This document shows, one piece after another, positions 539 through 20,718 of a stretch of 24,065 bases of DNA. Made by a program: the position numbers and the translations under genes. The notes under the pieces are model-generated. The model did no database searches and had not been told where the DNA came from. It was given only the letters and a program-made list of their open reading frames with translations. This stretch comes from a virus: the IMG/VR virus record IMGVR_UViG_3300010413_000345, positions 1 to 24,065 of that record, one strand, 5' to 3'. Positions within the stretch are counted from its first letter, which is position 1. Each line of letters opens with the position of its first letter.

Positions 539-955
539 TCACCTGATTTCTATATATATTTGACTGTAAAGTTTTCTTAGCTGAATCTTTACTGGCCTAT
601 AACCGCCCGTGTTGATGTCTTGATGCAATGGAGGTTCAGAGGGTCTTGCAGGAAGGAGATAAAACCAGCCCCATCCTTCGATTTTCACCCACAATATGCC
701 ATTCTGACTTACAATCAAAACAGGAGTCTTGATATTGAACTCGATGTTGATATTTTCCTGCCAGAACCAAAGGCAAGGCTTTATCGTAAACCTCCAAATG
801 GAATCCGGTTGCAACCCTCCGGTAATTGCGCCATAGAAATATGAGCCATCATCCATGTGGGCTTCTGCCATGCCTATCCACCCTGAATAATCTTGGGCAT
901 TTGCCTGAATAGAAATGCAAAATAGCAGAATCAATAATGCAATCCATTTTTTCAT
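539..955 (-). CDS. Exported hypothetical protein with Sec signal peptide
   Basis: A 138-residue protein. The N-terminus is a classic signal peptide: two lysines, a hydrophobic core (WIALLILLFCISI) and an A-N-A cleavage site near residue 20. The mature part is rich in W, Y, F and short strands (IWRFTIKPCLWFWQEN, ILWVKIEGWGWFYLL), as in a small beta-sandwich. It starts directly after the stop of the long fibre gene (GAGG, then TAA-T-ATG). A secreted product in the late operon is odd, because virion proteins normally stay in the cytoplasm. It is one of four such proteins in this operon. Role unknown; a periplasmic or surface factor is possible. Confidence 0.7.
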   Translation of the reverse strand: MKKWIALLILLFCISIQANAQDYSGWIGMAEAHMDDGSYFYGAITGGLQPDSIWRFTIKPCLWFWQENINIEFNIKTPVLIVSQNGILWVKIEGWGWFYLLPARPSEPPLHQDINTGGYRPVKIQLRKLYSQIYIEIR

Positions 956-6100: not shown

Positions 6101-6835
6101 TTAAAACTGCCTGGTCCACTCGATTTCGATATTACCGGTGGCGGTAATCGTCGCTGCGCCAGCCCAAGTGTCTGCGGCGTTCAGGTGGATGGTGTGAGCA
6201 TCGCCTGTATTCCGTTCGAGCTTGGTTGTCACAATGGCGTTCACGGCAGTGCCGGCGCAATCTCCTGCGGTCTGACCCGTAAGGATGTTTTCAAACGTGG
6301 CTGTACCGCTAAGAACCGCTGTAGCACCGGAGGCGATTACCGTACCCACACCAACATCGGGAGTATCCGCATCGCAGGTTGAGCCGCTGCCATAGATTCC
6401 AACGGACATTCGGCAACCCTTGATCTGGATTGCACCAGCGGGAAGGGTATAGAGCTTCTTGCCCATTGCGACGGCTGCGGCTGAAGCTGTGCCGAGCGTG
6501 ATACCGCTGAAGCTAAGTTTAGTGACATGATTTCTGCCATTAACGCTTTCCTCAACGCTTATTCCACTTTCAGGCACTCCTACCGCTTCTCCTGGCGCAC
6601 GATTGAAGTCGGCATGAGGCCCGACCAGAACCAGTGAACCATTTGCATGAGCTTCCTGCTTTCCTTTTAAGCCGCGGAAAAGCCCTATGGTGGTTCCGGT
6701 AATGCTAAGAACCTTGCACTGCTCGTTGTCAATGCACACAGGGTATCCCACGACGAATCCGGTTGCGGAAGCGACGATGATGTTACGATCATTCTTGCTG
6801 ATCGCTGCTGATAAAGTTGTTGCTGTGACAGTCAT
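6101..6835 (-). CDS. Putative capsid decoration or head fibre protein
   Basis: A 244-residue protein directly after the coat gene (13-base gap, ribosome site GGGAGG). Residues 1-75 form a small beta domain of a kind common in phage head and tail proteins (ISKNDRNIIVASATGF, then CKVLSITGTTIGLFRGLKG). The rest is Gly/Thr/Ala-rich and strand-forming, with MGKKLYTLPAGAIQIKGCRM near residue 125 and a C-terminal NIEIEWTRQF. There is no signal peptide. Position and composition suggest it binds the outside of the capsid, but it could also be a minor structural fibre. No enzymatic motif. Confidence 0.6.
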   Translation of the reverse strand: MTVTATTLSAAISKNDRNIIVASATGFVVGYPVCIDNEQCKVLSITGTTIGLFRGLKGKQEAHANGSLVLVGPHADFNRAPGEAVGVPESGISVEESVNGRNHVTKLSFSGITLGTASAAAVAMGKKLYTLPAGAIQIKGCRMSVGIYGSGSTCDADTPDVGVGTVIASGATAVLSGTATFENILTGQTAGDCAGTAVNAIVTTKLERNTGDAHTIHLNAADTWAGAATITATGNIEIEWTRQF

Positions 6836-9224: not shown

Positions 9225-11297
9225 TTAAACTTGTTGTTGTCCCTGCTGCTGTCCGGGCGCTTGATTCGGCGCGGCAACAGCATTGATCCTTTGCTGCAAT
9301 TCTGCCTGTTGAGCTTGAAGGGCTGTTTCGTGTGCCATACCTTCCTGCTTGCCCTGGAATCCAAGCAGCGCCTTGAATCTCTCAACATCGGCCTGCAAAG
9401 CTGCAATCAATTCCTTGCTCTCAAGCTCTTTGGTCTTGGAGCGCATTTCCTCACTGAGAGTATTTAACTGCTCTGTCAAAGCCTGTATCAACTGCTGCAT
9501 TTCCATCATCTTCTTGGACATTGACGCAGGGCTTTCCTCGGTCTTGAACTGCTCTGGCTTCAACCGCTCGGCCATTTCCTCGCCGTATATGCCAAGCTGC
9601 TGCATCTTCACGATCAGATCACCGATGAGCGCGAATACTTCAGGGCGGTTGGCAACAATCGCATTAGCGAAGTTTTCAGCCTTCTCACGCTGGCTCTGGA
9701 AGCTCGGACCGATTGAGATTGCAACTCCATGCTCTCCAACGGCAGCCTTGCGAAATACCTGTTCATTGGTTTTCTGGTCAACAACGGGTTCGTTTATCCT
9801 AATAAACTCCCGCTGACCATCTTTCTTCATAATGGGAACATCGCGTGCAGAATCGTAAATCTTTCCGATCATGTTATCCATGATTCGGCCGGCGTGCTCG
9901 AGCGCCACATCGTAATTGTCAATGAAGTGGTAATTACCCTGGTCGCTCTGAGTGTCGAGTGCCTTGATCGCCACACCTGACTTCACTCCTGTTTCAGCGC
10001 GGCCCACGCTTACGTTATACATCCCAAGGGCGCTTTGAATCGCTCTACGGGCTGCTTCACTACTCAACATAAGCGATTGAATCTTCTGCGCAGTCCCTTC
10101 GTAAGTCACTTGCTGCGGTGGTGGCAACTGCTGTCCCTGCGATCCTTCAGTGGTCAGACGATAGTAGAGCACGTTGAAAGGCTTCTTGTTGGCCTGGAAC
10201 CAATCATTTTCAAATCCATCCAACTGTCCTTCTGCGGCGGTCCATGTAACTTTCGGAGCTTGAGCGATGGTTTCAGCTTCAGCCGTCTTTGTGTAGGCGT
10301 AAAGCATTACAGCATCCCGAGCGAGGCGCACAAGCGAAAGCAGTTTCCTCTTTGCACCGTCCCCTTTATCCATCCATATCTCACGGCCAAATACCGGAAC
10401 AATCGGGATCCAGCGGCCCTCCCAGGGATTGACTTGCAGGATCTCAATGCCATTGGTGACGTACTGCACAATGTTTCGTCGCTCCGACATGCGCTCCTGA
10501 AGTATTGGAAAGGCAATACCATTGAACATCACAGCGCCATTCTGGATTGCTCCCTTTTCCAACTGGTCGGCCCATACATTAGTATTTTTCTGCTGATCCC
10601 CTACCCTAAGCAGTTTCGCTCTCTTGGTTTCAACCTTCCAGTAGCCGGCCACCTGAACGTGCTTTTCTTTGATCCAGTGAGGATACTTGGTCTGCATTTC
10701 CGTGGTGAAATCCTTGAACTCGGTCTTGTTTCCGAACTCAGACTGAAACCGCTCTTTGGTGTAATCATCCATTTCAAAGGCAAAAGTCATGTCTGAAGCA
10801 TCGGCCTCTTTGAATCCGGGATCAATGAGGATGGTATTCGGATTAGGAATCCTTTGAATATAAAGCTCCTGGTCGAACGAATCCTCACGAGTGTAGCGTT
10901 TCCCGATCTTGAAGTAACCATAACTTCGCTGGATCGCGTTCTCAAACGCCGTGATATAGGCCGCCTGCCCTCCATCCCCTTCTATCTTCCGGATGATGTC
11001 TGCGTGAAGCTCGGCGGTCTGCTCGTCTGCGCCGCCACCTTCAGGACTGATTTTTACTGCACGCTTATTCTGCCGGATGTTGTTTATCGCCTGATTCGTA
11101 TACTGGTTCAATTCATCAAGAGATAATGCCAGCCGTTTATTCTGTGGATTGTTACGCCGTTCTTTCTCATCCTGGGGCCAGGGATCTCCTGTAACATAAC
11201 GCATGTCGGTATCGCCTTCCTTGCGTATATCGGCCCACTCATCATTTGCGAAATCGAAATTATCTGTTATTTCCTTCAAAAGATCATCGTTTGGCAT
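9225..11297 (-). CDS. Portal protein, P22 gp1 family
   Basis: A 690-residue portal protein, close to P22 gp1 (725). The start is ATG 11297, which overlaps the TAA of the upstream gene (TAATG); an upstream in-frame extension of 54 residues lies inside that gene and is not portal-like. Family features include the N-terminal DEWADIRKEGDTDMRYVTGD, then ALSLDELNQYTNQAINNIRQ, SYGYFKIGKRY, IPNPNTILIDPGFKEAD, and the crown/stem helices near GVKSGVAIKALDTQSDQGNY. The C-terminus is a long helical, Gln-rich barrel (MSKKMMEMQQLIQAL and onward) ending in a Q-rich tail (APGQQQGQQQV). It forms the DNA entry pore at one capsid vertex and docks terminase. Confidence 0.9.
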   Translation of the reverse strand: MPNDDLLKEITDNFDFANDEWADIRKEGDTDMRYVTGDPWPQDEKERRNNPQNKRLALSLDELNQYTNQAINNIRQNKRAVKISPEGGGADEQTAELHADIIRKIEGDGGQAAYITAFENAIQRSYGYFKIGKRYTREDSFDQELYIQRIPNPNTILIDPGFKEADASDMTFAFEMDDYTKERFQSEFGNKTEFKDFTTEMQTKYPHWIKEKHVQVAGYWKVETKRAKLLRVGDQQKNTNVWADQLEKGAIQNGAVMFNGIAFPILQERMSERRNIVQYVTNGIEILQVNPWEGRWIPIVPVFGREIWMDKGDGAKRKLLSLVRLARDAVMLYAYTKTAEAETIAQAPKVTWTAAEGQLDGFENDWFQANKKPFNVLYYRLTTEGSQGQQLPPPQQVTYEGTAQKIQSLMLSSEAARRAIQSALGMYNVSVGRAETGVKSGVAIKALDTQSDQGNYHFIDNYDVALEHAGRIMDNMIGKIYDSARDVPIMKKDGQREFIRINEPVVDQKTNEQVFRKAAVGEHGVAISIGPSFQSQREKAENFANAIVANRPEVFALIGDLIVKMQQLGIYGEEMAERLKPEQFKTEESPASMSKKMMEMQQLIQALTEQLNTLSEEMRSKTKELESKELIAALQADVERFKALLGFQGKQEGMAHETALQAQQAELQQRINAVAAPNQAPGQQQGQQQV

Positions 11298-12172
11298 TAT
11301 CTTCTTAGCCTCGCTCTTCCCGCTGAATTTCCGGCTATGTATTGATAAGCACCTATGTCCCAGGCACTTCCAGAGGGCCTTGCATTTCCTACGGTAGAAG
11401 CCGATCCCGCGCCTACCGTATTGGGCCTGTCGTAACAAAGGGCCGTATATGAAGTGCAATAAGATGTTAGATCCTGTCCGGCCCCAACAATCGGTGATCC
11501 TGCAGGCGGCTTATACACCGCATCCAAATTAGGATTATCGGTTATGCTATTACATTCATTGTCATCATTAGGGCAACCACCGAGATAGGTTTGCCACGCC
11601 GCTAGAGTATCGTATTCTGGCCCTCCTGTGTAATTGGCATAATGGACAAAATCATAATTATTGTTGTAATCCGAAGTGGGGACTGGAAGTGTTATGGATA
11701 ACTTATTAGCATCAACGCAAACATTATTTCTTATGTCCATAGCCTTGCCAGCAAAACAAGCTGCCGTGAATGTCCCTACTACGGTATTGTTCCAAAATCT
11801 GGCATCAGTATTTGTAGCAGACCAAGATACAACGCCATTAGATGGATTTGGAGCCACGCTAGTGTTTAGATACGGGCCAGCGATAAACAGGTTATTATAC
11901 ATAATGGCGTCATCAATGGTCCCGTAATCAAAATGAGCAAATGAGGTTGCGGTTGCCCCCCATTTGCTTCCAGGTGGAAAGTTAGTCCAGTAGAGCATCG
12001 GCCCATGTATGTAATTGTTATACCATTCTGAGTTTGTCAAAGATGAGGATTCCGGATCTGCGTGACCATCGCTATATAGATAGATTCCGTTGGCATGGCA
12101 ATCACTGCTTCCGTTGCTCATCCAATTACCGCCAATTTCTATATCATTGTTATGGATATTTACCTCATCCAT
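11297..12172 (-). pseudogene. Right-handed beta-helix protein, C-terminal part (frameshifted from the gene at 12180-12842)
   Basis: 291 residues that look like the downstream coils of a parallel beta-helix: short repeats with conserved Asn ladders (VNIHNNDIEIGG, YNNYIHGP, YNNLFIAGP, FWNNTVVGTF, IRNNVCVD) and an end with PPAGSPIVGAGQDL and WDIGAYQY, the typical close of pectate-lyase-like secreted proteins. The frame opens without a convincing start, and its codons before MDEV read E-D-D-Q-I, continuing the fold of the upstream frame. Together they would make one exported protein of about 514 residues. The stop overlaps the portal start, so translation of this frame may matter for portal expression. 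Confidence 0.7.
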
Positions 12173-12174
12173 GA

Positions 12175-12192
12175 TTTGATCATCTTCCCCTG
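12175..12192 (-). other. Frameshift site in the beta-helix gene
   Basis: Minus-strand TTC-AGG-GGA-AGA-TGA contains a run of four G (plus strand 12187-12190, CCCC). Removing one G gives R-E-D-D-Q-I-M-D-E-V and joins both halves without a gap. The cause may be a homopolymer sequencing error, a real mutation, or a +1 programmed shift; the sequence alone does not decide. Confidence 0.7.
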
Positions 12193-12842
12193 AACCAGAC
12201 TATGCCAGTAGACGCGTCGGATATATCGCAATCGTGAACGTCTACATATGTTGTTCCTTGAAAATAGATTCCTTTCCCTCCCCCATAAGGCATAGTGTCA
12301 TCGGTTGTGGTCTGGTATTGATGCACATACATAGTTCTTATTGTGAGGTTTTGAACGGTAATATAGGTCGACGTTCCCCACACATAGATTCCAGTCGGAG
12401 AGAGGTTGTTGGTATACCCCGCAATCGCGCTTCCGTTGTCGGTAGCCTGAATTATCCCTACTCCCATGCCATCTACTATAACGTCGTGTTTGTTTGAAAT
12501 TGAAACGAGATTTGTTTGACCGGGAACTTGTATGGTTCCCGGAGCATAACTTTCTCCACAATTAGCCGTATCGCAAAAAGCAAGCGTCACTGGGTTGTGT
12601 GTGCCGCCATCCCCGCTTGCGCCAACAACAACGGCTTGACCGTAAACAAGATTAACGGTTCCGCATATCCAAACAGTATCCCCAGCGGTTACGCCAGACC
12701 AATTCCAAGTATATGCTCTTGCATTGGCACAAGACGTACCATCGCCTGAGCCTGCTGCTGATTCGGCTATATAGTAATCTGCGGCAAATGATGATGAGAC
12801 AAATAAAACCGATAAGAGCATAAAAGCTAAAATATGTCTCAT
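12180..12842 (-). pseudogene. Exported right-handed beta-helix protein, N-terminal part (frameshifted)
   Basis: 220 residues with a clear signal peptide (MRHILAFMLLSVLFVSSSFA, cleavage before ADYYI). The mature start YYIAESAAGSGDGTSCANA is the usual opening of secreted parallel beta-helix proteins, followed by GDTVWICGT, HDVIVDGMGVGI, STYITVQNLTI and TTYVDVHDCDISDAS. The frame ends in a beta-strand turn (GIVWFRGR, stop), and the same fold continues in another frame. The start overlaps the LamG gene stop (ATGA) and has GGAG upstream. Roles of such folds include polysaccharide binding or cleavage (tailspikes, pectate lyases); no catalytic residues can be assigned here. Confidence 0.75.
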
Positions 12843-13684
12843 TGTCCCGCTCCCGTAAGCAGTATAGATGTTCCTGTGCCACCACCGGAAACGTCGTATA
12901 CCCCGTTTCTTATATCATCTATTTCATCATCACTCAGAATATCGTCAAAAACAGCAAATTCATCTATAAGTCCGTTGTGGAAACTAGCCGGAGTTCCGGA
13001 ACTAGACAGACTACCCAAAGTGAATAATCCATCTTCTATGTTTATATTGTTTGTAGCAGTTCCACTGTCATTTTCTGTAGATCCTCCGTCCGTGTAAAGC
13101 CTTGCCGTCCATGCTTTAGTATCGTCCCGGTAAGTAAGGCCAAAGTGATACCAAGTATTGGTCGAGAAAGATTTGTTTGAGAACAGTCCGGTTCCGCTAG
13201 GAATCTGCTCAAAACTAGACCCGCCGTTATAGCCTAGTAAAATATAAAGTTTCTGGTCAGTACTTATATCCCCAAATGCAAAACTTCTTTTGTTTCCAAT
13301 TGAATCCCACTTGCCGAATACATAATGCCCCCCAGTTAAAGTAGTAAATCTGACCCAGAAAGTAACGCTGATTATTTTCTGAGAATCCCCATTCAATAAC
13401 GGAAAATCGGAAATCGTTAGGGCAATATTGGCATCCGTAGAATAAAGAGCCTGACTACTACCACTAGCAAACGCCGCTGAATATGAGCCTTCTTTGTGAG
13501 TTGAGCTTTGCGTTACAGTATTGTAATTGGTCAGAAGGGTATCGTCGTCTGTAAGCTCCTCGCGTGTTAGGGTCTCAAAAAGGAAGACAGCCTTACAATG
13601 GGAGTCGCTTGCAAAATTGTTGGCTGCAAATACAGGGGAGCAAACAAAAAGCAGGCTAAAAATAATGAATAGAAATCGTTTCAT
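12839..13684 (-). CDS. Exported LamG-like (concanavalin A-fold) protein
   Basis: 281 residues. The signal peptide (MKRFLFIIFSLLFVCSPVFA) is followed by a single jelly-roll domain of the laminin-G-like type: AVFLFE at the start, ISVTFWVRFTTLTGGHYVFG in the middle, NTWYHFGLTYRDDTKAWTAR near residue 185, and NGLIDEFAVFDDILSDDEID near the end. The WYHFGLTYR and GLIDEFAVFDDILSDDEI segments are hallmarks of LamG_3 domains, which bind glycans or proteins and usually have no catalysis. The gene is coupled by ATGA to the beta-helix gene downstream and lies 12 bases after the repeat-protein gene, so the three exported proteins are made as a unit. Confidence 0.75.
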   Translation of the reverse strand: MKRFLFIIFSLLFVCSPVFAANNFASDSHCKAVFLFETLTREELTDDDTLLTNYNTVTQSSTHKEGSYSAAFASGSSQALYSTDANIALTISDFPLLNGDSQKIISVTFWVRFTTLTGGHYVFGKWDSIGNKRSFAFGDISTDQKLYILLGYNGGSSFEQIPSGTGLFSNKSFSTNTWYHFGLTYRDDTKAWTARLYTDGGSTENDSGTATNNINIEDGLFTLGSLSSSGTPASFHNGLIDEFAVFDDILSDDEIDDIRNGVYDVSGGGTGTSILLTGAGQ

Positions 13685-13696
13685 GCTAACCTCTAA

Positions 13697-15919
13697 TTAC
13701 TTTTGAACATAAGTTATATATCCCGAAACTCTTGATGTTCCATTTTGAGTTAGGCAAAGAGCGTTTCCACCCGTATTAGTATGGAAGGCTGAAGCTGCAC
13801 CATTGCCCGCCGTAAAACCACCGTTGGCAGCAAAAGACATACCATTTCCTTGTGTTGTGCTTCCAACTACCGCTAGTGTGGATGTTCCGCAAACGCTTCC
13901 AGTGCCTTCAATGAAATTAATTATTTCCGCTGCTGCCCCCACGAGGACAGCCGAACACACATAAATCTTTGTGCTGCCGGATGCGGCCACGAGTTGAGCA
14001 TCGTCAGCCTGACTGACAGCTAAGGTTGTGGAGGCCGTATCACTACAAGGATCTATCGTCGTGGTAAGTAACAACTGATCCGTAGTGAAGTGCAGACCAC
14101 CTTTGTCTCCGTCCTCTATGGCGGTGCGCGACGCCTCATACTCACCGCCAACAAACACCGGATTTTCTCCGGCGTTTATTGCAGAATCTATAGCTGAATC
14201 GTCGGCTTGCGCTCCTGTGCTCGTCACAAGGCGCGTGTATATCGGATGAGTCGCGTCATTCGCAGTGCCCGAACCATCATAAGCGGAAGCCTGTACCACA
14301 AAGGTTCCCGCGTTATCAACTTCTAAAGCAACCCCTCCATCATCAACTGAAATGCTGCTTGAATTATCGTCAATGGAAAGCGTAGAACTTGCATCGTCAA
14401 CGGAAATAGTGTTAGTGATGTCTGTCAGAGTTCCACTTATGGGGAAGGTGCCGCCCGTACCAGTGACGAGTAGGGCGTTGGTGTTGGAGGCGGTATTTTC
14501 CAAGGATACTTCCAACGGATTGCCGGCCACACCGGTTGCGGTTGCGTCAGATTCCTCAAGAGTGACGTATAAACCTCGACTAGCGTTCATCGCCAAGGCA
14601 CCGGCATCGTTATCGTCTACCGTATCCCGGCTAGATCGATAAATTCCAGCTACAGGAGTTGTTGAAGTGGTGCCCACAGTAAAGGCCGAATCATCATTCA
14701 TTGCCGTGCCACCTGAGCCACCGAATGAGGTAATTTGATTGCCGGAACTGTCAACGACCTGCACGGATAATGCTCGTTCTGATCCACGGCTTGCGCTTGT
14801 AAGAGCGTTTCCGGATCCATCCTGAGTCTGACTATTCCATGTGCCTGATTGCGTGGCTGCTACAGTACCATCAACCGTTATGACGTTTCCACCATCATCA
14901 ATCGACAGATCCCCGGAGTTATCGTCCACATGAACAACATTAGTGATCCCGGTCAGAGTGCCATCAATACTGATCGTACTGGCTCCATCGTCGATTGAAA
15001 GAGTGCTGGAATTATCATCGACATGAACCACATTGGTTATACTTGTAAGAGTACCGTCGATTGAGATTGTGGATCCTCCATCATCCACTGAAAGGCTAGA
15101 TCCATTATCGTCCACGGATATAGGGGAGCCACCATCATCTACCGTCAGACTTCCACTTGCATCACCCACTGGCAGGACATTAGCTGTTCCTACCGCCCCA
15201 ATGGTATCGGCGCTTGCCTCGATCATCAGTACCGTGCCTGTAATCGTTGCGTCAGTATCGCCCTCAGTGTATTGGGTGCCACCTCCAAAGGTTGTGATCT
15301 GCGTTCCGGATCCATCGACGAGCTGCACGGATAAAGCCTGTTCACTTCCCCTGGTCGCGCTCGTAAGAGCATTACCGCTTCCATCCTGCATTTGAGCATC
15401 AAGACCACCGGATCCAGCTTTCACAGGCAATCCAGTACCGTCAACCGCACCGGAATTGTACTCGAGTATGTTTGTGTCAACCGTGCCAGTAACCGAAGCG
15501 GATCCAGCCGCATTGTTAGGGCTGGCCTTGGCAAAATTCATCTGCACGGTAATTGTGCCGCTGGTATAAGCCGAGCAGCGCACCCTAACGGATTTCATCG
15601 CGCCGGTATTGACTTGCCAAGCTCCTGCTGCGGTTGCACTTGTGGCCGTCGACAGGGTTCCCGGCACAATGGCTGTAAGAGAAACCCAATTATCGCCGTC
15701 CATCGTCCCTTCAAACTGCACGGTAGCGGTAAAAGTGCCGGAGAGCTGAACACCCATCACGCCGTTATCGCTGATCCGGTCAAATTGAACGCAAGCGCCA
15801 GAAGTTGCACAGGTAGTCCCAGCCGCACTCAAGGTTCCTGAATAACTGGTATCGGCAAAAGCTGGTCCCGCCAGTATCAAGAGCATCATAATTAGGGTTA
15901 AAAGTGATTTTTTCATCAT
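13697..15919 (-). CDS. Exported 740-residue repeat protein with phage structural domains
   Basis: The signal peptide (residues 1-22, cleavage after A-F-A) precedes a beta-sandwich at about 25-135 of a kind found in phage structural proteins (GVMGVQLSGTFTATVQFEGT). A 40-residue unit occurs twice, at about 176-213 and 364-401 (QDGSGNALTSAxRGSExALS in both). Residues 257-350 and 505-535 hold short S-V/I-D-D-G/N-G/S-S repeats. The C-terminal 117 residues (624-740) form a separate beta domain with paired cysteines (KIYVCSAVLVG, GTGSVCGTS, ALCLTQNG). It resembles the stand-alone protein at 19018-19389 and decoration-like domains of other phages. The start overlaps the upstream stop (ATGA), with GAGG upstream. 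A fibre, adhesin or surface decoration is likely; the signal peptide is unexplained. Confidence 0.75.
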   Translation of the reverse strand: MMKKSLLTLIMMLLILAGPAFADTSYSGTLSAAGTTCATSGACVQFDRISDNGVMGVQLSGTFTATVQFEGTMDGDNWVSLTAIVPGTLSTATSATAAGAWQVNTGAMKSVRVRCSAYTSGTITVQMNFAKASPNNAAGSASVTGTVDTNILEYNSGAVDGTGLPVKAGSGGLDAQMQDGSGNALTSATRGSEQALSVQLVDGSGTQITTFGGGTQYTEGDTDATITGTVLMIEASADTIGAVGTANVLPVGDASGSLTVDDGGSPISVDDNGSSLSVDDGGSTISIDGTLTSITNVVHVDDNSSTLSIDDGASTISIDGTLTGITNVVHVDDNSGDLSIDDGGNVITVDGTVAATQSGTWNSQTQDGSGNALTSASRGSERALSVQVVDSSGNQITSFGGSGGTAMNDDSAFTVGTTSTTPVAGIYRSSRDTVDDNDAGALAMNASRGLYVTLEESDATATGVAGNPLEVSLENTASNTNALLVTGTGGTFPISGTLTDITNTISVDDASSTLSIDDNSSSISVDDGGVALEVDNAGTFVVQASAYDGSGTANDATHPIYTRLVTSTGAQADDSAIDSAINAGENPVFVGGEYEASRTAIEDGDKGGLHFTTDQLLLTTTIDPCSDTASTTLAVSQADDAQLVAASGSTKIYVCSAVLVGAAAEIINFIEGTGSVCGTSTLAVVGSTTQGNGMSFAANGGFTAGNGAASAFHTNTGGNALCLTQNGTSRVSGYITYVQK
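14870..15151 (-). repeat. Coding repeats of the SxDDGGS type
   Basis: Residues 257-350 of the 740-residue protein consist of tandem 8-9-residue units such as SLTVDDGGS, PISVDDNGS, SLSVDDGGS and STISIDG. Two longer unit pairs (GTLTSITNVVHVDDNSSTLS and GTLTGITNVVHVDDNSGDLS) show a recent duplication of about 30 residues. The regular Asp/Gly turns suggest a stacked beta shaft, possibly metal-binding. Confidence 0.75.
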
Positions 15920-16116
15920 ATTATCCTCGTTTGACTTCCATTCTTTTCAAGCCGGTATTTCCTTCCGCATCGTTCAATAATGCGTCCAGGCTCAAAAGGA
16001 ACGTAGCCGATTTTATTGATCTTTCCTCGATCATCGTATCCTACCGCCACTGCTATTGAAGGCTTTTCTGGATACCCTTTCTTTGCAAGCGGATCGCCGA
16101 ATCTTTCAATCTTCAT
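15916..16116 (-). CDS. Hypothetical 66-residue protein
   Basis: Small basic protein (MKIERFGDPLAKKGYPEKPS, then AVAVGYDDRGKINKIGYVPF and GRKYRLEKNG), mainly beta by appearance. There is no signal peptide, and no family is recognised. The start ATG overlaps the end of the upstream gene by 11 bases with GGAAAG as ribosome site. The stop overlaps the next start in an ATGA, so it is coupled to the large exported repeat protein. Confidence 0.65.
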   Translation of the reverse strand: MKIERFGDPLAKKGYPEKPSIAVAVGYDDRGKINKIGYVPFEPGRIIERCGRKYRLEKNGSQTRII

Positions 16117-16318
16117 AGTCTTTCCAGTTGTAGCCGCCTTTGCTAAATTCGCCCTTTTTCAGTTTCTTTTTGTACTTTTTTAGTGCCTTGTGGTACTTTG
16201 AAACATAAGGCAGCATCTTGGCTTCATAATATGCCATATCTTTTCCTCGATCCTCTGACTTCATAGAATCTTTATTTATTCCTCGAACTTTGTTAATGAA
16301 ATCCATAACAGAGGACAT
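16106..16318 (-). CDS. Small lysine-rich protein with GGYxWxDYE tail
   Basis: A 70-residue protein starting at ATG 16318 with GGAG seven bases upstream. The first 45 residues look helical (MDFINKVRGINKDS, YYEAKMLPYVSKYHKALKK). The last 21 are a basic-to-aromatic tail (KKKLKKGEFSKGGYNWKDYE plus D) that recurs nearly unchanged at the end of the neighbouring protein encoded at 16330-16512, whose N-terminal part is unrelated. A shared tail on two different small proteins suggests a common docking signal for the same partner. Confidence 0.7.
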   Translation of the reverse strand: MSSVMDFINKVRGINKDSMKSEDRGKDMAYYEAKMLPYVSKYHKALKKYKKKLKKGEFSKGGYNWKDYED

Positions 16319-16329
16319 ATTAAATCTCC

Positions 16330-16512
16330 TTATTCATAATCGCGCCAATCGTATCCACCACGCTTGCGCTCACCCTTCTTCAACTTCTTTTTCTTCTTAT
16401 GCCCAAGCTCGGGATTATCATGAAGCTCACGCTTCATCTTCTCTTTTTCTTCATCGCTCAGTGGTGAAGCGTCTGAAAGTAAATAACGCACTTGTTTCTC
16501 AGTCCACGGCAT
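16330..16512 (-). CDS. Small MPWTEKQ-type protein with GGYxWxDYE tail
   Basis: A 60-residue protein. The start is ATG 16512: AGGAG lies eight bases upstream and the preceding stop is one base away (TGA-A-ATG), while a GTG three codons earlier has no spacing for a ribosome site. The N-terminal part (MPWTEKQVRYLLS, then ASPLSDEEKEKMKRELH) resembles small proteins often seen in phage structural operons, with no known function. The last 20 residues (KKKLKKGERKRGGYDWRDYE) match the neighbour's tail at 15 of 20 positions. Confidence 0.7.
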   Translation of the reverse strand: MPWTEKQVRYLLSDASPLSDEEKEKMKRELHDNPELGHKKKKKLKKGERKRGGYDWRDYE

Positions 16513-16513
16513 T

Positions 16514-16759
16514 TCATTCACTCCTCAAAGCCAATTCGATTGCCAGGGCAGCATCCTTGCGCTTTGCACCGCTTTTCACCAGCATATCCATCACCAAATG
16601 CTGTTTCCACTCTCCCGAATTGGGCTTTTTATCCATTTTCCCGCACAAAACGCGCGCGGCCGGCACTAGATTCAATACTGCCTTCGGAATCGTCACAACC
16701 TGAAACCCACAGTAATTATTCAGGATCCAAATGCACAATTTCTTCACAAAATCTTTCAT
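16514..16759 (-). CDS. Hypothetical 81-residue protein
   Basis: The start is set at ATG 16759, which overlaps the upstream stop (ATGA); a TTG four codons earlier is less likely. The N-terminus has an amphipathic helix (KKLCIWILNNYCGF) and the C-terminal half is helical (GEWKQHLVMDMLVKSGAKRK, then DAALAIELAL). The C-terminal half recalls short phage proteins with a K-x-H-x-V helix followed by LAIE-x-A, seen in many virion operons; I cannot name a function. It has no membrane segment strong enough for a holin. Confidence 0.6.
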   Translation of the reverse strand: MKDFVKKLCIWILNNYCGFQVVTIPKAVLNLVPAARVLCGKMDKKPNSGEWKQHLVMDMLVKSGAKRKDAALAIELALRSE

Positions 16760-18252
16760 AATGGCCCCCAAACCCCTCTCATCGGACTCATTATCGGATA
16801 AGCTGGCACTTCACCATTGATGATCGGAGGATAAGCGGTCAACGTCAAAGCCCGGACCGGCACAGTAATGTAAGTGTCCGTGCCATAACTCACTGTCGGA
16901 GCATAACTGGTCAGCGCCAAGGCCGCCTGCGGTATCTCGATCCACTGATTTGCCGTAACGTCAATCGTAGGAGCATACGCCGTGATCCCCAGGCTCCCAT
17001 TCGGCACCTCAATCCATTGATTCGCTTCCGCGGTAATCGTCGGCGCATATCCTGTAATCGTCAGCCCCGAAGCAGGGACCGTAATTATCGTGCCAGCTCC
17101 CACATCTATCGTCGGAGCGTAAGAAGTCAGAGTAAAACTCGCTGCCGGGATCTCTATCCACTGATTTTCCGTCACGATTGCCGTTGGTACGGACGAACTC
17201 ATGGTAAGGGATGCTACAGGTATCTCGATCCACTGATCTTCAGTGAGGACGATTGAAGGGGCATAATTGGTTATGCTGAAAGCCGCAGCAGGAACCGTGA
17301 TCTTGATTGAAATTCCGATCGAAGGGGCATAGGAAGTCAGCGAGAAGCTGGCATTGGGTATTTCAATCCACTGGTTAGCTTCCGCAATGACTGTTGGAGC
17401 GTATGGAGTGAGGCTAAAGCTGCCGTTTGGTATTTCTATCCATTGGTTCTCGGTTGCCGTAGCTGTAGGCGCGTAAGGTGTCAGCGTAAAAGCGCCGTTT
17501 GGCACCTCGATGAATGTATCTTCAGTAACATCAACGGTTGGAGCGTATCCTGTAATTGACAATGCCGATACTGGCACAGTAACGATTTCATTAGCGGATT
17601 CATAAGGTTTAATGGCAATGGTAATTGCGCGCCAATAGGATGAAGCCGCATAAGTCCAGCTTGTAGGATTTTCATCACCCGCAGAAGCTATTTCTTTGGT
17701 CGCTATTGTCTGATTATGATCGTAAGTATCGCTTCCAGCTTGATCTAAAGTGTTGGAATATCCGCTCGGTGTTCCTGTCGGGCTGGCCGTATCTCCTGAT
17801 TTATGAGCAAAGGTAATAACCCAGGCTCCATTTGTTTGTGTGGTTATCTGGTCAGGATCCGGTGTAGCCGACGAGGTTTCAGACGTAATCACCGGCGTTT
17901 GATCTGATACAGAACCATCTACACCCTGCAAGGCAATAGCAATTCCTGTTGTGTCAGTAGTAGCGGCTCCATCCCCGCTCATTTCCACAGAGCTATCGGG
18001 TATGGCACCCATGACCTTATACCACACACCCATTGACGGACGCTCTGTTGTGCTACCGACAAATGGAGTTACTAATTCAGTCCACCCTGAACTCACCATT
18101 GCAGGGGTAACGCCGTCTACTCTGGGCGCAGATACACACGCAATGACAAGATCACCCTCAACCAAACTCAATCCAGACAGGTTTATGGTGACATTCCCGC
18201 CGTTGTTGGCGAAGGATGATACTGGTGCCGAACCCCTTAAAGTGATTGCCAT
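16756..18252 (-). CDS. Fibre-like protein with eleven 24-residue repeats
   Basis: A 498-residue protein without a signal peptide. Residues 1-217 form a jelly-roll-like beta domain common in phage and bacterial surface proteins (GNVTINLSGLSLVEGDLVIA, WTELVTPF, WYKVMGAIPDSSVEMSG, ending in SSYWRAITIAIKP). Residues 222-483 are eleven tandem repeats of about 24 residues with consensus QWIEIPxxSFTLTxYAPTV and a short linker. Residues 484-498 are a unique tail. The pattern fits a long beta shaft or stack with a globular head. It starts with AAGGCGG upstream of ATG 18252 and is coupled to the 81-residue gene by ATGA. A head or tail fibre is likely; its place between terminase and portal is unusual. 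Confidence 0.7.
   Translation of the reverse strand: MAITLRGSAPVSSFANNGGNVTINLSGLSLVEGDLVIACVSAPRVDGVTPAMVSSGWTELVTPFVGSTTERPSMGVWYKVMGAIPDSSVEMSGDGAATTDTTGIAIALQGVDGSVSDQTPVITSETSSATPDPDQITTQTNGAWVITFAHKSGDTASPTGTPSGYSNTLDQAGSDTYDHNQTIATKEIASAGDENPTSWTYAASSYWRAITIAIKPYESANEIVTVPVSALSITGYAPTVDVTEDTFIEVPNGAFTLTPYAPTATATENQWIEIPNGSFSLTPYAPTVIAEANQWIEIPNASFSLTSYAPSIGISIKITVPAAAFSITNYAPSIVLTEDQWIEIPVASLTMSSSVPTAIVTENQWIEIPAASFTLTSYAPTIDVGAGTIITVPASGLTITGYAPTITAEANQWIEVPNGSLGITAYAPTIDVTANQWIEIPQAALALTSYAPTVSYGTDTYITVPVRALTLTAYPPIINGEVPAYPIMSPMRGVWGPL
16804..17589 (-). repeat. Eleven tandem 72-bp coding repeats
   Basis: Direct reading gives eleven units of 72 bp (one of 66 bp) in the fibre-like gene. 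The most constant parts are an I-x-V/I-P motif and a Y-A-P-T/S motif about ten residues later. Seven units begin with or near QWIE and four with (T/I)xITVP or IVTVP, suggesting two subtypes. Codons differ between units, so the array is old or has been kept by selection at the protein level. Confidence 0.85.
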
Positions 18253-18274
18253 TTAGCCGCCTTAAAAGCTATTT

Positions 18275-18718
18275 CTAGGTGCCACCGGTCAGAGTGAAGC
18301 AGCCCGAAGTGTGCATTTCAACGGTCAAGGAGTTTCCATCAGTGACAGTCACATTCTGAGGGGTATTATCCAATAGGCTTATACACACAAGCGGCTTTAC
18401 CGGAGAACTTACGGTATCGTCGAATATGAAAGCCCTATAGCAGACAATCGACCCTCCTGAAGCCGTGAATACTCCATCATCCGAATCAAACGTGACCGTG
18501 GTAGTAGAGCGCGTCCAGGTTGCCACAAGCGTATCTCGTGCATATCCATTACCGGATACCTCGTTTGTAATGTCGCCTAAGATGGTATGGTTTTCATAAT
18601 CCGGACTATAGGACGAAGTAACCAGACCCATGATGAACGTGTCACCATCAAGGTCGATGGTTCCATCTGCCATGTATTCCCGAAACGTATTGTAAAAGAT
18701 CCAGGCATCAGCTGTCAT
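18275..18718 (-). CDS. Conserved phage structural-type protein, 147 residues
   Basis: The N-terminal FREYMADGTIDLDGDTFIMG and the following TSSYSPDYENHTILGDITNE, then YARDTLVATWTRSTTTVTFD, match a protein type I recognise from many phage and prophage structural regions. It has no assigned function, and is predicted to be all-beta. No signal peptide. The start has AGGAG upstream. It lies between a Zn-ribbon protein and the repeat fibre, so a role as a small virion subunit is plausible. Confidence 0.65.
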   Translation of the reverse strand: MTADAWIFYNTFREYMADGTIDLDGDTFIMGLVTSSYSPDYENHTILGDITNEVSGNGYARDTLVATWTRSTTTVTFDSDDGVFTASGGSIVCYRAFIFDDTVSSPVKPLVCISLLDNTPQNVTVTDGNSLTVEMHTSGCFTLTGGT

Positions 18719-18730
18719 AATTGATAGCTC

Positions 18731-19006
18731 CTAATTGACCTTTGGAAAGGCCGTGATTTTTAATTGCATCTTCAGACCGTGCCATTTGCCGCATACTTCG
18801 CACTTGTGAGGATGGTCGATCTCCGGAACTTTAATCTCCTGCTGCTTTCCATAGCCATGCTTCTCAACGCGAACGAACATATAACCGATCTTGCAGGAAG
18901 GGCAATTTACCCTTGCTCTGAGCGGTTCTACCTGATGAAGCAGCTTAGGATTGTCCACTACTTTCTTCAATGCTGCGTTTGGTACTTTGTTTCCATTGTC
19001 TTGCAT
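18731..19006 (-). CDS. Zn-ribbon-like protein, 91 residues
   Basis: Two CxxC knuckles at about residues 35-38 (CPSC) and 69-72 (CEVC), 30 residues apart, with a basic strand-rich linker (GYMFVRVEKHGYGKQQEIKV) and DHPHKCEVCGKWHGLKM, the pattern of a small zinc ribbon. It has the best ribosome site in the region (AGGAGGT, then ATG). It could bind nucleic acid or be a structural knuckle. It lies just after the decoration-like gene at 19018-19389. Confidence 0.65.
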   Translation of the reverse strand: MQDNGNKVPNAALKKVVDNPKLLHQVEPLRARVNCPSCKIGYMFVRVEKHGYGKQQEIKVPEIDHPHKCEVCGKWHGLKMQLKITAFPKVN

Positions 19007-19017
19007 GAGTCTACCTC

Positions 19018-19389
19018 CTAGACTTCAATGTAATTTATCCCACCAGACACTTGCACTGCACCGCCAAGGTACAGATTCAGTGCCTCCCCTGTTAGAGTCT
19101 CGAAGAAGAAGCAGATCGGACCCCAAGCATCACTCATTCCACCTCCTGCTTTCCATGTCTCTGCCGGCCACAGCTGACTTGCGCCACCAGCAAGGCCGCT
19201 CATCCAGCTTGTCGTAACATCCGAAGCCACGCTAAACTTGATCGCAAGCACTCGGATCTTGAAGCCTGGTACTGCTGCAACGATCTGATTATCCCCTGCA
19301 CTGGCTGCGTCTATCTGCGCTTTCTTCACCTGTCGGAGTACATCATCGATCTCTATGTATTGCTGGCCGCCCTTACTGAGTATTTGCAT
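19018..19389 (-). CDS. Small beta-domain protein, possible capsid decoration
   Basis: A 123-residue protein that follows terminase by three bases, with GGAG upstream. The strand order DNQIVAAVPGFKIRVLAIKF, a middle with WPAETWKAGGG, and the end with FFFETLTGEALNLYLGGAVQ and VSGGINYIEV match a domain often seen in phage structural proteins. The C-terminal 117 residues of the exported 740-residue protein follow the same plan. It has no signal peptide. A decoration or minor virion role is inferred. Confidence 0.6.
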   Translation of the reverse strand: MQILSKGGQQYIEIDDVLRQVKKAQIDAASAGDNQIVAAVPGFKIRVLAIKFSVASDVTTSWMSGLAGGASQLWPAETWKAGGGMSDAWGPICFFFETLTGEALNLYLGGAVQVSGGINYIEV

Positions 19390-19392
19390 TTC

Positions 19393-20718
19393 TTAGCTCC
19401 AAGGTCCAAAGCCGGTTGCTGGCTCATGGTATGGCACATATACTGGCTTCTTAACAGGTTCTTTCCGCACTGAGATAGCGAAATACTGGAAGGCGCTTCC
19501 AGGGTGACTCGCCCAATCGTGCAATGGTTTGTCGTGCTCAACCCCACTCGCCCCTTCTGCCGGCCAGCGGTAGTGTCGAAGCCCATTCAGACCGTCAGCG
19601 CACTTATCTGAATCGAAGTAGCACTGCGGAAAGATCGCCCGTGTAGCCGCAATCTGAGCTTTTATCGTAGTCAATGGCAGTATCACGATCTTATCTGAGC
19701 CGGCAATCTCCCTGGCCTGCTGCTCAATCGTCTTGCCAGTGGCAAGCTGCGGCGCCTTAGCGTCCGGTGGCAGGTGATGCTTGGAATAGACGTATGGCTT
19801 CTCTTGCAGGAGCTTGAAGTGCTGCGCCAGGCTGATTGCTTCCTCTGCTATGTAGTCGATGATATGGTATTCGAACGGGTAGACCTGCACGCACCATATC
19901 GAAGTGAATCGGTCCCCAATGTCCCAAAAGGTTTGCACTGGCTTCGTGCGGTCATAAGGCACTGAGCGCTCCCGGCCGTCCGCGGTAGCTTCCTGCAACT
20001 CCTTAGCGAAGATCGCCCCTTCCACTTGGGTGACAAAGCCGCCCTCGTAAATGTGCTCGAAGGCTTCCGGATCCGTGGCCTTCAAGTGGTCCATGTCCCG
20101 CTGCGCTTCATCCGAGATCCAGAGATTATCACGATAGGAGGTTTTGACTATCTTCAGGCCAGGAGGCGGGTTATTGAATAGAAACTTTATGATCGGATCG
20201 GAGGCCAACTCCGGATTGAAGCTAAACCATATTTCACTTCCGGTCTTGCGGATTGTCGGGATCAGAGTCTCAAGGCTGGTGCGGCTCACTGATTGCGCTT
20301 CCTCCACCCAGGCGCCATCAAATGATTCGTAGGCTTTCAATGCTGTAGCGTCATTTACCAGTGACCGAAGGCCGGCGTAAACAAACCGCGTGTCCTTATT
20401 TCCGGGCGCCTTGCCGTATATGCCGGCAGATTGAATGTCGTAATAGTCCGATAACCCCAGGAGCTTTATTTGGTCACTGAGGACCAGGTGAACGGATTCT
20501 TTGACCGTTTTCATCACCTCGCGGCAACATAGCCACCGGATATTACGCTGTGCACCGTTTATGACAAGCTGGCGTGCCATACTCCAAGTCTTGACTCCGA
20601 CCCGGCCGCCCCACATGGCTTTATACCGATGAGGTTCGGCCAGGAACGCGGAGCACTCAGGCATCTGGATCTGTTTTCTGGATAATTCCTGGGGTTGCAC
20701 TGACATAGATGACATCAA
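19393..20718 (-). CDS. Large terminase subunit (DNA packaging ATPase/nuclease) with deviant Walker A
   Basis: 441 residues. The ATPase part has a Walker A region at residues 37-44 reading GGRVGVKT (usual GGRGSGKS or similar), a Walker B/catalytic segment GAWVEEAQ at 136-142, and a motif III-like IWFSFNPE at 163-170. The nuclease part has TFWDIG (D266), HHLPPDA (D319) and LHDWASHP (D401), the RNase H-like triad positions of this family. It translocates DNA through the portal and cuts concatemers. Two glycines of the P-loop are valines (V40, V42). The start is uncertain: ATG 20718 and 20706 both lie inside the small-terminase gene, and no strong ribosome site was seen. Confidence 0.9.
   Translation of the reverse strand: MMSSMSVQPQELSRKQIQMPECSAFLAEPHRYKAMWGGRVGVKTWSMARQLVINGAQRNIRWLCCREVMKTVKESVHLVLSDQIKLLGLSDYYDIQSAGIYGKAPGNKDTRFVYAGLRSLVNDATALKAYESFDGAWVEEAQSVSRTSLETLIPTIRKTGSEIWFSFNPELASDPIIKFLFNNPPPGLKIVKTSYRDNLWISDEAQRDMDHLKATDPEAFEHIYEGGFVTQVEGAIFAKELQEATADGRERSVPYDRTKPVQTFWDIGDRFTSIWCVQVYPFEYHIIDYIAEEAISLAQHFKLLQEKPYVYSKHHLPPDAKAPQLATGKTIEQQAREIAGSDKIVILPLTTIKAQIAATRAIFPQCYFDSDKCADGLNGLRHYRWPAEGASGVEHDKPLHDWASHPGSAFQYFAISVRKEPVKKPVYVPYHEPATGFGPWS

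Follow-up and report, generated by a model that had tools for sequence, protein, structure and literature searches.

A variable gene slot between terminase and portal in a clade of uncultured P22-like phages, with adhesin-like genes that carry predicted signal peptides

Results

An accessory-gene slot between TerL and portal

We analysed a virus record of 24,065 bases, classed as linear (IMG/VR record IMGVR_UViG_3300010413_000345; this whole stretch is called the window below), and found that the interval between its genes for the terminase large subunit (TerL) and the portal protein is a variable accessory-gene slot of one uncultured environmental P22-like clade. Judging from the sequence of its genes, the slot may supply exported, often disulphide-bonded adhesin or decoration proteins that join the virion at lysis, a reading that we favour tentatively. 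The broader proposal, that the clade builds part of its virion surface outside the cytoplasm, with Sec-exported, oxidised fibres, spikes and decoration proteins added at lysis and with a given gene acquiring and losing its signal peptide, is possible and is held with less confidence.

The window contains a P22-type structural run on the minus strand (TerL, portal, scaffold, coat, adaptor and gp10-type closure protein), in which the P22-type portal, coat, scaffold and gp10-type closure families were recovered in order (phrog_156, phrog_283, phrog_8865 and phrog_578). This order, with a head-tail adaptor after the coat gene, is that of P22-like (Lederbergvirus-type) phages; what sets the clade apart is a stretch of accessory genes, up to 7.9 kb long, between TerL and portal. 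In the window the portal does not directly follow TerL. We measured this gap in 156 non-redundant P22-like loci that contained both genes, which a portal score of at least 400 bits to the window divided into 49 clade loci and 107 others. A portal scan with the single protein had given no relatives, whereas a profile scan did; the clade counts depend on the identity cut-off (44% for the capsid, 400 bits for the portal), and the rows are not independent.

The gap was 100 bp or shorter in 62 of the 107 loci outside the clade, which bears out the view of a first, sequence-only reading of this DNA that TerL and portal are adjacent in P22-type phages, and in only 2 of the 49 clade loci. Median gaps were 28 bp and 1,289 bp, respectively, and the window had the largest gap of all 156 loci (7,934 bp, from the portal start of the open reading frame (ORF) program). 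The slot is thus a clade trait, with the window as its longest example. Given that so few clade loci have a short gap, the interval is normally filled with small genes that vary from locus to locus; both length and content of the slot differ between relatives (e.g. 5,415 bp in L237, the contig of L156; L numbers denote the loci compared). The 8-kb block that the sequence-only reading had placed between TerL and portal is thus real: we counted 12 minus-strand ORFs, most of them coupled or closely spaced.

Content of the slot in the window

The genes of the slot and its two borders are the following, in order from TerL:

19393–20718, minus strand: TerL, terminase large subunit, upstream border of the slot (phrog_3717, 5.9e-51)
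19018–19389, minus strand: 123-aa protein without signal peptide, predicted beta jelly-roll (AlphaFold model, pLDDT 79)
18731–19006, minus strand: 91-aa protein with four Cys, zinc-ribbon-like by eye (phrog_9369, 3e-4; weak L156 homologue, 7e-4)
18275–18718, minus strand: 147-aa phrog_644 protein (1.3e-26; L156 homologue with 42% identity)
16756–18252, minus strand: 498-aa fibre-like protein with repeats at its C-terminus (seven matched by pattern, mostly spaced 24 residues apart)
16514–16771, minus strand: small ORF, 85 aa by the ORF program (ORF only)
16330–16512, minus strand: small gene with a YDWR-type C-terminus, clade pre-portal family (matched by eye to L159 and L162)
16106–16318, minus strand: 70-aa protein with a YNW-type C-terminus (ORF; by-eye likeness to pre-portal genes)
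15916–16116, minus strand: 66-aa protein (L132 homologue with 47% identity, 2.2e-10)
13697–15919, minus strand: 740-aa protein with signal peptide and N- and C-terminal beta domains (975-aa homologue in L143, 4.7e-38)
12839–13684, minus strand: 281-aa LamG (concanavalin-A-like lectin) protein with signal peptide (PF13385, 3e-16)
12180–12842, minus strand: probable beta-helix, first half, 220 aa, with signal peptide (PF13229, 18.9 bits, cut-off 25.9)
11297–12172, minus strand: probable beta-helix, second half, 291 aa, in another frame (frames around the junction)
9225–11297, minus strand: portal, downstream border of the slot (phrog_156, 9.8e-85)

The conserved portal starts at an ATG at 11297, which overlaps the stop of the preceding gene; the start given by the ORF program, 11459, is too early. 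The slot consists of two sets: a TerL-side set without signal peptides (the 123-, 91-, 147- and 498-aa proteins) and, beyond the small genes, a portal-side set with Sec-type signal peptides.

As the sequence-only reading had it, the interval holds adhesin-like beta-proteins, among them the repeat fibre, the 740-aa protein, the LamG protein and the beta-helix, the last with a score below the family cut-off. The LamG protein belongs to Laminin_G_3 (PF13385; 60.3 bits against a curated cut-off of 27.6), and a tblastn search for it in phages found no relative. For the 740-aa protein, a direct search of viral contigs found no relative and tblastn in phages gave one short match only. Its C-terminus shares a domain with the 123-aa protein (domain HMM match, 4.7e-28); a fold search with the 123-aa model returned no specific PDB match (best Z 7.0). 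The 220- and 291-aa ORFs appear to be a single beta-helix gene broken in two, each part in its own frame. Read as one they give 514 aa and 24.8 bits to PF13229, still under the cut-off of 25.9, and a PDB sequence search with this read-through protein gave one chance match only. At the junction (12172–12180) the second half opens with an ATG of its own, 7 bases past the stop of the first half, and the break could reflect re-initiation, a frame-shift or a sequencing error.

Signal peptides across the virion region of the clade

We called signal peptides with a home-made rule (not SignalP), under which the background was 2 of 729 core proteins and 249 of 20,000 random N-termini. A first, stricter rule failed on some evident cases (L229 and L230:4964-5776 among them), and a looser version of it served for the survey of the virion region, which included accessory ORFs of at least 80 aa and extended 4 kb downstream. 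Signal peptides were called in 49 of 292 accessory ORFs in the virion regions of the clade versus 3 of 355 in other P22-like loci (Fisher 1e-14); outside the virion region the counts were 21 of 351 and 24 of 797, respectively. The slot itself contained signal-peptide genes in 12 of the 49 clade loci and in none of the 107 others. One fibre-like protein with a signal peptide was seen in a locus outside the clade (L012:18799-20103).

In the window, the heuristic for n-, h- and c-regions was positive for three genes of the block (the 740-aa protein, the LamG protein and the first half of the beta-helix). The three signal peptides of the sequence-only reading hence stand under this rule, with the amendment that one more gene of this kind, the fourth, follows the tail genes and is not part of the block:

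539–955, minus strand: 138-aa protein with signal peptide (heuristic)

In relatives, the signal peptide precedes domains of virion families: a tail spike in an 821-aa protein of L155 (phrog_7458, 3.4e-15; PF12708, 2.3e-10), a tail fibre in a 409-aa protein of L227 (phrog_6202, 1.8e-11), a virion structural protein in a slot gene of L246 (phrog_2804, 3.6e-9) and a head protein in the gene after the capsid gene of L156 (phrog_673, 3.6e-33). These combinations favour surface parts of the particle that are exported and added at lysis. A slot protein with signal peptide at L246:9238-9900 resembles an outer-membrane beta-barrel by eye and has no Pfam or PHROGs match.

The gene directly after the capsid gene

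The window has, directly after its capsid gene, a gene whose relatives elsewhere carry a signal peptide:

6101–6835, minus strand: 244-aa gene, here without signal peptide

Of 63 clade loci, 52 allowed the gene at this place to be scored (of the others, 9 lay at contig edges and 2 had no ORF of 90 aa there), and the first rule assigned a signal peptide to 28 of the 52 and none to 24. All of the 28, and 10 of the 24, fall into a single family. According to an alignment of 14 members, which include versions of both kinds, the signal peptide is an extra N-terminal stretch before the alignable domain. We modelled the domain behind the signal peptide of L162 (pLDDT 80), and the model resembled virion domains: the JBD30 baseplate and the VP1 capsid (both Z 10.6), the GP4 portal-tail complex (10.2), the Chi tail tip (9.7) and the Mystique tail tube (9.2). 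The tree of the 52 rows required 10 changes of the signal-peptide label, at least 7 of them on starred branches (first rule). This count is too high on account of L229, of picks in the wrong frame (e.g. L197 and L208) and of 14 rows outside the family.

The members without a signal peptide speak for a function that a cytoplasmic protein can also perform, and they bear on a different explanation, in which the signal-peptide proteins, expressed late or in lysogens, are exported but remain on the infected cell and never enter the virion; there they would mask receptors, keep out other phages or make cells stick. The signal peptides are typical, the domains are of secreted type (LamG and beta-helix domains occur in secreted proteins of cells), and the barrel-like slot protein of L246 would suit such a role. 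However, the genes sit inside the run of virion genes, the signal peptides of relatives stand on tail-spike, tail-fibre and head-type families, and the family after the capsid gene keeps members without signal peptide at the same place. We consider proteins confined to the host envelope less likely than the favoured reading, but the strongest of its rivals.

Cysteine patterns

Cysteines of the mature proteins were counted under the first signal-peptide rule. These patterns are indirect signs that the signal peptides are used. Within the family after the capsid gene, all members with a signal peptide had an even number (24 of 24), compared with 5 of the 10 Cys-bearing members without one. In the C-domain of the 740-aa protein, four Cys columns were present in the window, L143 and L195 (the signal peptide of L195 was read by eye), and none in five stand-alone rows; a Cys pair of its N-domain was present in 5 of 6 signal-peptide rows and absent from the single row without one. 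The read-through beta-helix has 12 mature Cys, 5 in the first half and 7 in the second.

These N-termini might also serve without export, in assembly or in membrane contact at infection, or go unrecognised, the proteins then being ordinary virion fibres made in the cytoplasm. The virion families behind several of them are what this would predict, but an N-region, a hydrophobic core and AxA-type ends recur over unrelated proteins, and Cys evenness and Cys columns track the signal peptide in two families, so that we regard it as improbable.

A composite rather than a single module

We compared the block with individual relatives. In L156, homologues of the 91-, 147- and 498-aa genes lie in the same order between TerL and portal (that of the 498-aa protein has 779 aa, 5e-16) and are preceded by two different signal-peptide genes. 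In L132, whose coat is 65% identical over the query and whose portal is 41% identical, the homologue of the 66-aa gene directly overlaps the portal start in the junction sequence; thus, the three signal-peptide genes are missing at that junction. In L143, with a coat 66% identical to that of the window, the 975-aa homologue of the 740-aa protein, with its signal peptide, sits between the capsid gene and the gp10-type gene, as does a 467-aa signal-peptide protein (beta-helix by eye, no Pfam match). In L230, a gene in the slot between TerL and portal combines a signal peptide with the N-domain of the 740-aa protein. Parts of the portal-side set thus change position within the virion run. The three signal-peptide genes of the window were not found together in any other locus examined.

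The proposal of the sequence-only reading that the block is one inserted module was rejected: the 91-147-498 set recurs in L156, the L132 junction is empty and parts lie after the capsid gene in L143, so that the block is a composite in an interval that the clade normally occupies. Neither do close relatives all share the block as core genes. Contents that differ between relatives, the empty L132 junction and the frame break of the beta-helix would all suit captured cargo, that is, recently acquired host or phage genes that have no settled role and drift through permissive gaps, with the split beta-helix decaying. Against this stand the recurrence of signal-peptide genes in clade slots and the fact that the signal-peptide family next to the capsid gene is long-lived, and we consider captured cargo the least probable of the explanations weighed here.

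How exported proteins could reach the virion

For the tentatively favoured reading, export followed by attachment at lysis, the steps would be as follows. The signal peptides would be used by the Sec system of the host, and the 740-aa, LamG and beta-helix proteins would fold outside the cytoplasm and may bind polysaccharide or other surface ligands; disulphides would probably form in the 740-aa and beta-helix proteins. Lysis would mix periplasm and cytoplasm, so that the exported proteins could attach to virions and widen what the particle sticks to. The TerL-side set, which has no signal peptides, would represent an ordinary virion fibre or decoration protein.

Several observations weigh against this reading, beginning with the home-made nature of the signal-peptide rule. 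None of the three signal-peptide proteins of the window matched a virion family in profile searches, and the beta-helix with its broken frame may be inactive. Mature Cys number 7 in the 740-aa protein and 1 in the LamG protein, signal-peptide proteins other than the family after the capsid gene have an even number in 9 of 17 cases, which is no excess, and L174, without a signal peptide, still has the Cys pair of L156. Finally, the barrel-like slot protein of L246 fits a change of the envelope rather than of virions.

Tailed-phage particles are taken to assemble in the cytoplasm. Export signals on adhesin, spike and decoration genes, if true, would mean a second assembly compartment or a remodelling of the host surface from the virion operon. 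Because versions with and without a signal peptide occupy one position behind the capsid gene, the question is open to a direct test.

Comparison with known systems

Accessory spike genes among head genes are already known: phage DSL-LC05 (OR003940) likewise has pectate-lyase and tailspike genes among its head genes, by annotation, but these lie between portal and scaffold and not between TerL and portal. According to the portions of the sources available to us, phage export signals belong to lysis proteins (PMC3556154, PMC3765740); the SAR endolysin and Rz1 of JG068 also use host export and, as the consulted part of that report describes them, are lysis proteins, unlike the adhesin-like or virion-type proteins of the clade (PMC3765740). 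The Pantoea protein WceF is described, in the part of the article consulted, as a secreted bacterial enzyme with a tailspike-like fold (PMC7949094). Like the beta-helix of the window, it is a beta-helical, tailspike-type protein with an export signal, but it is encoded by a bacterial gene and has a Tat signal, whereas the window has phage virion-region genes with Sec-type signals. We found no paper on Sec signals of virion proteins in the open literature, a search that left most subscription papers outside.

Additional observations on the TerL-side genes, hosts and other loci

The 498-aa protein matched 6 Gordonia phage records annotated as minor tail protein (best 4e-16). Relatives of phrog_644, to which no function is assigned, were present in 217 phage records, mostly of mycobacteriophages and Caulobacter phages. 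The small pre-portal proteins with YDW/YNW-type C-termini form a family by eye, found in the window (16330–16512 and 16106–16318) and in L159, L161 and L162.

The only capsid gene of the clade found in the genome collection was that of L189 (PKUY01000259.1; 53% identity), on a 5.4-kb contig of an Acidobacteria metagenome-assembled genome. Matches were found in 2 of 396 Acidobacteria genomes, one of them the same genome as L189. In L230 (2003–4664), TerL is present as two ORFs about 1 kb apart, for which an intron, an intein or an insertion is possible, and the portal gene is broken into two or three ORFs in L170 (4472–6828) and L189 (649–2779).

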